Part shown: positions 9,768-34,759 of the stretch, piece by piece
Layout of the letters: each line of letters begins with the position of its first letter
Numbering within the stretch: position 1 is the first letter of the stretch
Source: Caulobacteraceae bacterium
GTDB taxonomy: Bacteria > Pseudomonadota > Alphaproteobacteria > Caulobacterales > Caulobacteraceae
Assembly (NCBI GenBank): GCA_003165275.1
Contig: PLSW01000385.1
Location: 1-34,759 of the forward strand
Direction of reading: 5' to 3'
DNA length: 34,759 nucleotides
Notes under the pieces: model-generated
Told to the model about the DNA's origin: nothing
What the model saw: only the letters and a program-made list of their open reading frames with translations
The model's database searches: none
Made by a program: the position numbers and the translations under genes

Positions 9768-9881
9768 CGGGAATGGCTGCAACTCGACCTGGTCGTCGAC
9801 CCGGCCGAAAAGCCTTGGCGTTACTCAATGACGTGCCGGAAACTCACGCCTACACCCTCTACGCCTGGGAGGTCTGGCGAG

Positions 9882-10320
9882 GGTGCGGTCAGGTTAACCC
9901 GGCCATTTCGCAAAACCCCTGCCCTTCCGAAATCTAGGCGCGGATTTCCTGCAACCACAGCTGATGTGCCGCGGCGCGGAAGTACTTCAGCGTTCGCCGG
10001 CTGAGTGATCAGGAACCTCTGCGCCGAGGCCCTGGACTTGCATCCCCGCTGCCGCCGCGCGTGTTGTCGGGTCTTCCGTGTCCCGTTTCCGTTGCATCGC
10101 AAGGACTACCGCCTCCCCCTCACCACTGACGGACCGCCACAAATACATCCGCCGTCCGCCGACCTTGCAGACCCTCTCGTCCAGATGCCGGCGAGGCGAC
10201 GGCGCCGGCCGGTGACGCCTCAAGCGGCGCGCAATTTGGCGCCCAAACTTGATCGTGCGGCAGACTTGAACCCTTGCTACTCGATCGAGCAGTGTCGGAC
10301 CGATCCGGTGGGTTGTTGCC
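9882..10320 (-). mobile_element. IS6-family transposase relic with internal deletions
   Basis: On the minus strand the reading frame contains CRTIKFGRQIARRLRRHRP and HLDERVCKVGGRRMYLWR, the DNA-binding linker and first catalytic Asp region of IS6 transposases. It then jumps, with loss of most of the DDE core and a frameshift, to RRQRGCKSRASAQRFLIT, and after another deletion ends with FRAAAHQLWLQEIRA and a stop. The outer end GGTGCGGTCAGGTTAAC at 9883-9899 matches the ends at 387 and 32513. The upper limit near 10320 is approximate. The ORF at 9987-10415 is part of this ruin, not a gene. The rest of the 9768-10522 interval holds only the presumed promoter region of the efflux operon. Confidence 0.75.
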
Positions 10321-24027: not shown

Positions 24028-24184
24028 GTTGGACTGTCGGCGCCCCACTCAGTCAGCCGGCGACATAGGGGACTTTTGCGCCTCCCAGAGACAACTGCGC
24101 CCACGACAGCGTGGGTCGCGCAAACCTGTCTCATACCGCCCAATGGACCGTCGCTCTATCGTCACGAAAACGATGCCGCTTGCT

Positions 24185-24360
24185 GATCTGAGCTCGCGAA
24201 GTGTCCGCCTGCTCGTCAGATGGCGTTGCGTGTAGAAGGTGTTGTGGACGGCCGCGTGGGTGCTGAGGAACCTCTGCGCGGGCCGCGGACTTGAAGCCCT
24301 GCGGCCTTCGCTCCCGTCGTCGGATGGGTAGGTGGCTGTTCCCCTGCCGCGCCTTCTGCG
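24185..24360 (-). mobile_element. IS6-family transposase relic, C-terminal part
   Basis: Minus-strand reading gives RQGNSHLPIRRRERRPQGFK, then, after one frameshift, FLSTHAAVHNTFYTQRHLTS and RRTLRELRSA. These correspond to the NRAENSHLPxRRRER, FKS and RHL-SRRTL blocks at the C-terminus of IS6-family transposases. The final codons and the inverted repeat are missing, and the N-terminal part is absent. The stretch between this relic and the small regulator gene at 24504 contains only a short palindrome. It is oriented like the other relics. Confidence 0.72.
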
Positions 24361-24470
24361 TCTAACGGCCTGAATCGGAAACCCTGCGGGCTTTCGAAGC
24401 TCTATCGCACCGATCCGGTGGCCGCCGCCGATGTTGATTGGGGATCATTGAGGGCGTAGACGTTACAAGT

Positions 24471-31949: not shown

Positions 31950-32354
31950 TCAGGGAGCAACGTCGCGCGAGGCGCCGCGCTTAAGCTGTATGTCCACGCC
32001 GCTGGATTGGTGCGACACGAACAGACTGTTGCTCCAACGGCTGAAGCCAAGCACCGTCTTGCCATCCGCGCCGACCAGCCGCATGCCGTCCGCCGTCGGC
32101 TGCCAAGCGACCGGATCGCCAGGCACGGCGCCGGCGCAACCCGGGGCCGCTTTGGCCGAATATCCGGGGCCGACGCGGTTTTTGCCAAGCGTCACGACGC
32201 AGATGTCGCGTCCGCCGGATTGCAGCGTCCAGGCGCCGCTCGCCTCGCTCGGGCTCAGAGGCACGCCCGCCTCGTGATCGGCGGAAAGTGCTGAGGCCAC
32301 GTGCGGCAGCAATGCGAAGGCTGCAATTCCAGCGAAGACGACCCAGCGCTTCAT
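31950..32354 (-). CDS. AprI/Inh-family metalloprotease inhibitor, secreted
   Basis: A 134-residue protein with an N-terminal signal peptide (VVFAGIAAFALLPHVASA) and a single small beta-barrel domain of the AprI/Inh/Omp19 type: SGAWTLQSGGRDICVVTLGK at the start and FSRWSNSLFVS near the end. Two cysteines (DIC and PGC) are placed for the family disulfide. Known members sit in the periplasm and inhibit serralysin-type proteases that reach the wrong compartment. No protease gene is in this window, so the target is unknown. GGAG lies about 6 nt before the ATG. It converges with the hyf operon, 61 bp apart. Confidence 0.85.
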   Translation of the reverse strand: MKRWVVFAGIAAFALLPHVASALSADHEAGVPLSPSEASGAWTLQSGGRDICVVTLGKNRVGPGYSAKAAPGCAGAVPGDPVAWQPTADGMRLVGADGKTVLGFSRWSNSLFVSHQSSGVDIQLKRGASRDVAP

Positions 32355-32512
32355 GACGTTTCTCCAGCAATCGCAGCGTTAAACGTCTATCGGTCAGGAC
32401 AGTTGCGCATCCGGCGCTGCAACTGCTCCTTTTGGAGCTGAATGTCCCTGTCGAGTCTAACCCCCGCCGCTCGATGCGCCGGAGCTCGCTGTTGGCCGGG
32501 CTAGGGGCGATG

Positions 32513-32760
32513 GGGGCTGTCAGGTTAACCCTGCCCGCTCGGAATAGCTCCTGCCCTTCCGAAATCTAGACGCAGGCCTCCTGCAACCACACCTGATAGG
32601 CCGCGGCGCGGAAGCCGTTTCAGCGTTCGCCGGCTGATCAAATGGCGAGCCGTGTAGAATTTATTAGTATAGATCGAGGCCTGGGTGGTCAGGAACCTCT
32701 CGGCGGATGCCCTCGATTTGAATCCCCGCTACCGCCGCTCGTGTTTCCTATCGGCAGGTG
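32513..32760 (-). mobile_element. IS6-family relic, transposase C-terminus and right end
   Basis: From 32760 down on the minus strand the sequence reads HLPI, RGFKSRASAERFLTTQASIY and TARHLISRRTLKR, then, after a one-base frameshift, FRAAAYQVWLQEACV and a stop. An in-frame TAG also interrupts the RRRER block. Beyond the stop the end GGGGCTGTCAGGTTAAC (32513-32529) matches the terminal repeats at 387 and 9882, so this is the right end. The upper break at about 32760 is abrupt and lies 18 bp from the araC-like stop codon. The rest of 32355-32512 shows only small hairpins upstream of the inhibitor gene. Confidence 0.75.
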
Positions 32761-32777
32761 GATCCCTCGACGCCGCG

Positions 32778-33680
32778 TCAACTGGCTTGGCCTTTGTGGC
32801 GCGACTTGAGCTCGGCCCGCGGCGAATGCCCATACAGCGCCTTGTAGGCCCGGCTGAACGCGGCCTCCGACTCGTAGCCGATACTCAGGCCGATTTCGCC
32901 GACCCGCGCGTCGTGCTTGGCCAGTAGATCCCGCGCCAAGGCCAAGCGCCATTCATTATGGTAGCGCAGCGGTGAGCGGCCGACGAGGGTCGTGAACCGG
33001 TCGCTGAAGCTCGACCGCGACATGCCGGCGATCCCTGCCAGGGCTTCGATGCTCCAGCGTTGATTGGGTTTTTCATGGATCGCCTTCACTGTGCGGGCGA
33101 TGCGGGAGTCGATCAGTCCGCCGATCCAACCCGACGTGTGGCCTTGGTGGACCCAACTGCGCAAGGTCCGGATCACCACCAGGTCGATGAGCCGGGAAAT
33201 CATCAAGGCCGCCCCGGGCTGGATGTCGCCGGCTTCGATCATCAGGAAGTGGATGATGCCCTCAATCCACCCGGCGCCCTGCGCCTTGCCGATGTGGATC
33301 CATCGCGGCAAGGCGGAGACCATGACCCGAAGGCTGTCGGGATCGAACCAGAAACGGCAGATGACGAAGGCCGCCGGCGCGTCCGTCGCCGCCAGCCGCA
33401 TGTCCCCCGGTCCACGGGGCAATAGAAGCAGGTCGCCGGAGGCGATCACCACCGGCGTCTGGTGGTCGCCGGCGAGCGTAAGAGCGCCCTCCGTGACGAC
33501 GAGGACATGGGCCGTTTCCGGGTCCAACTCGGCGGCCTGGCCCGCCTGAAGGACGCGGGAATAGATCTTGTCCCCCGTGAGGCGGATCTGGGCGAGCACG
33601 TGGGACAGAAGGTCCGCTGAAAGGGCGCTGCGCACGTCTGATTCCGGATGAACGATCAAGTTTTCCAGATGGTCCGTCAT
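32778..33680 (-). CDS. AraC-family regulator with N-terminal cupin domain
   Basis: A 300-residue regulator. The N-terminal half resembles the AraC-type cupin (AraC_binding/cupin_6: VIASGDLLLLPRGPGDMRLA). The C-terminal domain has two helix-turn-helix units, IEALAGIAGMSRSSFSDRFT and VGEIGLSIGYESEAAFSRAY followed by KALYGHSPRAEL. It is divergent from the alpha/beta-hydrolase gene, with a 9-6-9 bp inverted repeat in the 167-bp gap. This arrangement is common for AraC-type activators that control a neighbouring detoxification or hydrolase gene. Its ligand is unknown. Confidence 0.9.
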   Translation of the reverse strand: MTDHLENLIVHPESDVRSALSADLLSHVLAQIRLTGDKIYSRVLQAGQAAELDPETAHVLVVTEGALTLAGDHQTPVVIASGDLLLLPRGPGDMRLAATDAPAAFVICRFWFDPDSLRVMVSALPRWIHIGKAQGAGWIEGIIHFLMIEAGDIQPGAALMISRLIDLVVIRTLRSWVHQGHTSGWIGGLIDSRIARTVKAIHEKPNQRWSIEALAGIAGMSRSSFSDRFTTLVGRSPLRYHNEWRLALARDLLAKHDARVGEIGLSIGYESEAAFSRAYKALYGHSPRAELKSRHKGQAS

Positions 33681-33723
33681 GGCTCGCTCTGTCGTCTGGC
33701 GCTACATCCATGCGCCATGGAGA

Positions 33724-33747
33724 TGCGTATATCTCTGAATATACGCA
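33724..33747. promoter_or_regulatory. Inverted repeat between araC-like and hydrolase genes
   Basis: TGCGTATAT-CTCTGA-ATATACGCA has perfect 9-bp arms and a 6-bp spacer, 43 bp upstream of the araC-like ATG and 100 bp upstream of the hydrolase ATG. AT-rich against the GC-rich background. It is a good candidate for a regulator-binding site, although AraC proteins often prefer direct repeats. Confidence 0.6.
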
Positions 33748-33847
33748 GCTTCCTTAACGAAAGTGAACCATCCCTGCGGACCGCTGGCGCAAACGGCAAT
33801 CTTGCTAATTATCCGACGGCGTCGCACTCATCAAAGAGGACCTTCCG

Positions 33848-34603
33848 ATGAAAATCCTGAACGCGACTGCGGCCCTGGCCGCCATCCTGGCCATCGCCAG
33901 CCCGATCGCCGCCAACGCGGCGACCGCCCGCAACGTGGTGCTCGTCCACGGCGCTTTCGCCGGCCCCTCGAGCTGGAACAAGGTCGCCCGCATCCTGCGC
34001 AACAAAGGCTACAAGGTGACCGAGGTCGCGATCCCGCTGACCTCGCTGGAGGCCGACGTCGCCGCGACCCGCAAGGTGCTGGCGGCGCAGAAAGGGCCGA
34101 CGGTTCTGGTCGGTCACTCCTGGGGCGGCGTGGTGATCGGTGAAGCCGGAGACAGCCCCAAGGTCAAGGCGCTGGTCTATGTCGCGGCATTCGCGCCTGA
34201 CAAGGGCGAGAGCGTCCAGGCGCTCTCGAGCAACGGGCCGCCCACCGAAGGCCTCAAGGCGGTTCACCCGGACGCCCAGGGTTTTCTGTCGATCGACCCT
34301 GAAGCGTTCCCCCGCGTGTTCGTCGGCGACGTGCCGGCCGACGAAGGCGCCGCGCTGGCGAAGCAGCAGATGCCGATCAGCGGCGCGGCCTTCGGCGCTC
34401 AAGCCACCGTCGCCGCCTGGCACGACAAGCCCACTTACTACGCGATCTCGGGCAATGACATGATGGTGCCACCGCAGGCCGAGGGCTTTTTCGCTCAGCG
34501 CATGAAGGCCAAGACCGTGACCATCCAGTCGAGCCACGCCTCGCCGGTTTCGCATCCGGGCGAGGTTGCCGCGCTAATTGAAGAGGCCGCCAAGGGGCGG
34601 TAA
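33848..34603 (+). CDS. Exported alpha/beta-hydrolase
   Basis: A 251-residue serine hydrolase. Residues 1-24 form a signal peptide (ALAAILAIASPIAANA). The oxyanion-region VLVHGAFAGPSSW and the nucleophile elbow GHSWGG with Ser91 are clear; the catalytic His is probably His230 in QSSHASPVSHP. The pattern is that of small esterases and salicylate/MenH-like hydrolases related to plant hydroxynitrile lyase-type esterases. AGAGGA lies 7-8 nt before the ATG. Divergently controlled, probably by the araC-like gene. The substrate is unknown. Confidence 0.9.
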   Translation: MKILNATAALAAILAIASPIAANAATARNVVLVHGAFAGPSSWNKVARILRNKGYKVTEVAIPLTSLEADVAATRKVLAAQKGPTVLVGHSWGGVVIGEAGDSPKVKALVYVAAFAPDKGESVQALSSNGPPTEGLKAVHPDAQGFLSIDPEAFPRVFVGDVPADEGAALAKQQMPISGAAFGAQATVAAWHDKPTYYAISGNDMMVPPQAEGFFAQRMKAKTVTIQSSHASPVSHPGEVAALIEEAAKGR

Positions 34604-34625
34604 TCCCCAGCCGATCCGGCGACCG

Positions 34626-34658
34626 TGGGCCGAAAGCACATCGCGCGCTTTCGGCCCA
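34626..34658 (+). terminator. Hairpin downstream of alpha/beta-hydrolase
   Basis: TGGGCCGAAAGC-(9 nt)-GCTTTCGGCCCA is a 12-bp perfect stem 22 bp after the hydrolase stop. The following bases (TTGGCC) give almost no T-run, but the position and stem strength fit a terminator. Confidence 0.6.
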
Positions 34659-34718
34659 TTGGCCGTTGGCGCGCCGAGCCGGCGGCAGGCCGCGATCGTT
34701 CCTGTGACACGGCAGGTC

Positions 34719-34759
34719 TGGCCGATTGCCCCCGACCTTGCAGACCATTTCATCGAGAT
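34719..34759 (-). mobile_element. IS6-family transposase fragment running off the window edge
   Basis: From the window end down, the minus strand reads LDEMVCKVGGNR, matching HLDERVCKVGGRR of the relic at 9882 (first catalytic Asp region). Similarity ends at about 34719, where the expected MYLWR is replaced. The element continues beyond the window, so its N-terminal state cannot be judged. Confidence 0.6.

Follow-up and report, generated by a model that had tools for sequence, protein, structure and literature searches.

An AraC-hydrolase gene pair lying within decayed IS6-family sequence of a Caulobacteraceae bacterium

How does a regulator gene and its divergent enzyme gene come to lie between pieces of an insertion sequence transposase gene? 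The question is posed by the right-hand end of the 34,759-nucleotide stretch of Caulobacteraceae DNA analysed here (the window), where a reading made from the sequence alone had placed an araC-like gene, an alpha/beta-hydrolase gene, an operator-like repeat and a terminator inside one broken IS6 transposase gene. The explanation that we consider very probable is that a horizontally mobile AraC-hydrolase module would have lodged within IS6-family sequence, and that the IS6 sequence around it would later have decayed beyond function. The features on which this explanation draws are collected in Table 1. The contig holding the window is 35,569 bp long, in a genome of 400 contigs, and extends 810 bp beyond the window end at 34759; for the extension locus L001, the L001 position plus 30899 equals the window position.

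Table 1. Features of the gene pair and of the IS6 sequence on either side, in window coordinates
Feature	Position	Strand	Basis
Decayed IS6-family transposase, C-terminal part, with the sole surviving terminal inverted repeat	32511..32761	-	blastn, tblastn
AraC-family regulator, 300 aa, Cupin_6 + HTH_18	32778..33680	-	Pfam
Operator-like 12-bp inverted repeat between the genes, AGATGCGTATAT-6 nt-ATATACGCAGCT	33721..33750		sequence
Alpha/beta-hydrolase, 251 aa, apparent signal peptide, GHSWGG nucleophile motif	33848..34603	+	Pfam Abhydrolase_6, E 4.5e-22
Terminator-like hairpin 3' of the hydrolase gene, GGGCCGAAAG...CTTTCGGCCC	34627..34663	+	read from sequence
IS6 transposase fragment at the first catalytic Asp (LDEMVCKVGGNR)	34720..34757	-	sequence comparison
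IS6 transposase N-terminal part, outside the window, beyond NN	~34764-34862	-	sequence comparison

The IS6 identity proposed for the transposase is borne out by an intact relative from another genome (L140, 231-236 aa), which scores 227.7 bits against NCBIfam transpos_IS6 (cut-off 125) and to which the window pieces align. The homology to IS6/IS26-type insertion sequences is seen at the C-terminus and in the region of the catalytic Asp. A full-size relative of this type (~0.8 kb, with TGTCAGG-type ends) is present in the same genome, whose fullest IS6 copy, found by searching with the 32.4-34.8 kb region, is on contig C204 (697-1515), with several partial copies besides. The C-terminal piece, read on the minus strand from 32761 to 32511, is 83% identical to the C204 copy over 254 bp (blastn within the genome, E 6e-57) and matches the intact relative with E 9e-10 (tblastn); it retains the inverted repeat GGTTAACCTGACAG at ~32511-32526 and contains frameshifts, which are absent from the earlier account. 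On the other side of the gene pair, the catalytic-site fragment LDEMVCKVGGNR aligns with LDEMVCNVRGKR of the intact relative, and positions 34757-34723 (minus strand) are 86% identical to the C204 copy over 35 bp, a match that is short but real and identifies this piece, too, as IS6. The N-terminus had been expected to follow past 34759, and it does so after two Ns, with 78% identity to the C204 copy over ~100 bp (E 1.8e-16 genome-wide). The left inverted repeat expected there is not found, IS6 similarity ending at ~34862, so that of the two ends only the one at ~32513 is marked by a repeat.

Alignment to the C204 and L140 copies upholds the order and strand first given for the pieces, which are complementary and do not overlap. 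Mapped onto L140, they run from residues ~10-41 to the NN break, resume at ~77-90 and, after ~80 missing residues, continue from HLPI to the C-terminus. The loss of about 80 residues at the junction, already noted, corresponds to a gap of ~238 bp (80 aa) between the halves at the cassette when counted on the C204 copy, and a further ~116 bp are missing at the NN gap on the same count. The IS6 remnant, with its frameshifts and gaps and an identity of 78-86% to the nearest copy, is dead, and its halves are now without any function. Unlike IS6/IS26-type elements, it is broken and frameshifted, has lost one end, and with it one side of the comparison for an 8-bp target duplication, and carries a 2-kb interruption. 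Neither of the outcomes named beforehand as contrary to the sequence-only reading, a separate full element at 34719 or a lack of similarity to IS6, appeared.

The two divergent genes between the pieces are confirmed by Pfam, and the araC stop codon lies ~17 bp from the C-terminal IS6 fragment. At its N-terminus, the hydrolase has a hydrophobic, signal-like stretch, and likely carries a signal peptide, which would make it an enzyme of the secreted type; its GHSWGG motif can also be read straight off the translation. Its matches in the PDB are weak only, to hydroxynitrile lyases, plant esterases and a pyrethroid hydrolase. The AraC protein probably controls the divergent hydrolase gene from the shared promoter region. 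Both of the accompanying elements described earlier, the operator-like repeat in this region and the terminator-like hairpin, are present, the palindrome being poorly conserved in the intergenic regions of relatives. No known RNA families were found in the window.

Distant genomes carry the pair as a unit. A search for the cassette elsewhere, as had been proposed, finds both genes divergent, conserved together and colinear in ~10 other genomes from several families, mostly over ~1.8 kb at 71-78% DNA identity. The colinear loci (window 32811-34612) belong to Rhizobium, Caulobacter, Methylocella, Methylovirgula, Caballeronia, Luteibacter, Rhodopila and Acidisoma, and homology to the other pairs stops close to the gene boundaries (window 32811 and 34612-34633). 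Gene order, an intergenic distance of ~160 bp and the 71-78% identity over 1.8 kb are those of the proteobacterial pairs of an AraC/Cupin_6 regulator with a divergent alpha/beta-hydrolase, from which the window copy differs in its IS6 surroundings only. The window AraC is 63-74% identical to the AraC proteins of close divergent pairs. Two of the closest hydrolase loci (L017 and L023) showed no match to it. The flanks are not shared: with the module's own two genes and the frames antisense to them set aside, no flanking ORFs are common with the window at E 1e-15, in a mechanical ORF comparison that weak similarity could escape, and IS6 is found near none of the related pairs in 11 loci. In Rhizobium sp. 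BK313 (L024 3718-4731), the closest related pair has a DDE_Tnp_1 transposase, which is not IS6, encoded ~200 bp away. Close copies of the hydrolase on plasmids were not found, the best plasmid-borne match reaching 58%, and a limited literature search returned nothing on this AraC-hydrolase pair.

In the trees of AraC and of the hydrolase, the window copy groups with those of Rhizobium BK313 and Luteibacter (support 100/98 in each), and in both the Caulobacteraceae copy L016 falls apart from it; L016 has the same match statistics as L095, the copy from the same genus, and appears to be identical with it. The gene trees, as reconstructed from these sequences, conflict with the kinship of the organisms. 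Because they place the window pair away from the same-genus copy, horizontal movement of the two genes together is probable. The locus would then be another instance of a small regulator-enzyme pair spreading among proteobacterial families and settling in IS debris, of slight significance outside the annotation of this genome.

As to how the module came to lie in IS6 sequence, it would have arrived by general recombination or by IS-aided capture, with the loss of ~80 transposase codons and with no dedicated transposon. The 2-kb segment has no terminal inverted repeats (the best is 5 bp), and an empty site was not found in relatives, where matches of the left flank to the same genus stop at ~31860 and the right flank matches no close relative over more than 140 bp. 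Whether the cassette inserted into a single IS6 copy, with the 80-codon deletion accompanying or preceding the insertion, is a narrower proposition, to which we give even chances. The complementary, ordered and non-overlapping pieces mildly favour one copy, and one 8-mer, CGGCAGGT, the only one shared, stands at both junctions (32752 and 34710). However, this 8-mer is all that was seen of the target duplications looked for there, and it is not significant as one, being at chance level (6-20% of comparable position pairs); the segment lacks terminal inverted repeats, and the missing codons need an additional event. What stands of the original claim is that the locus could have arisen by insertion into one IS6 gene, which is plausible; one split copy and two direct copies without their inner halves would look alike. 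Two direct partial copies would yield the same arrangement because cargo ends up between direct repeats left by IS6 elements (PMC7986276), and the halves are too short to be assigned by similarity to one versus two parent copies.

Such an origin, as the remnant of an IS6 pseudo-compound transposon in which two direct copies around the pair each later lost the inner half, is possible but somewhat unlikely. Flanking cargo in direct orientation is typical of IS6 elements (PMC7986276), and the locus shares with such transposons a cargo between same-orientation IS6 sequences, the C-terminal end forming the outer edge on the left and the N-terminal part that on the right. It differs from them in having complementary fragments rather than two complete direct copies, with neither side holding a whole IS copy and no recurrence of IS6 with this cargo; moreover, none of the transposase occurs twice, and the right-hand side lacks its outer inverted repeat.

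We regard it as improbable that the two flanks have nothing to do with each other and are IS6 scraps of an IS graveyard, or that the right flank was misjoined in assembly. Elsewhere on the contig, the minus strand does carry at least three further IS6 remnants (~251-390, 9867-10286 and 24178-24370), the second with an internal deletion of ~180 bp at 10073/10065; same-strand remnants, one of them internally deleted, fit slow decay. The two Ns (34760-34761) directly past the window edge form an assembly gap within the right flank, most likely a placeholder gap because 2-N gaps recur at other sites of the same assembly, and the ~116 bp absent there may be hidden in the gap or truly deleted. The right-hand IS6 join crosses this gap and so rests on the assembler; however, positions 34720-34757, on its near side, are already IS6 in the right order, which argues against both scraps and misjoin. 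That the pair was captured as IS6 cargo, leaving a decayed IS6 with passenger genes, is highly improbable. ISDsp3 is the only IS6 member with a passenger gene named in a review (PMC7986276). In place of the recurring tIS arrangement of cargo inside intact IS ends with an intact transposase, the transposase here is broken and none of the 11 related loci has IS6.

With a mobile two-gene module lodged in since-decayed IS6 sequence as the preferred reading, the locus is ordinary genome scarring, with no sign of a new type of mobile element. On its left, the IS6 remnant is adjoined by a gene of the protease-inhibitor Inh family (PF02974, E 3e-15; window 31950-32354, minus strand). The genes to the left of the Inh-family gene resemble membrane-hydrogenase/complex I-type subunits, in a stretch that matches same-genus genomes to ~31860.
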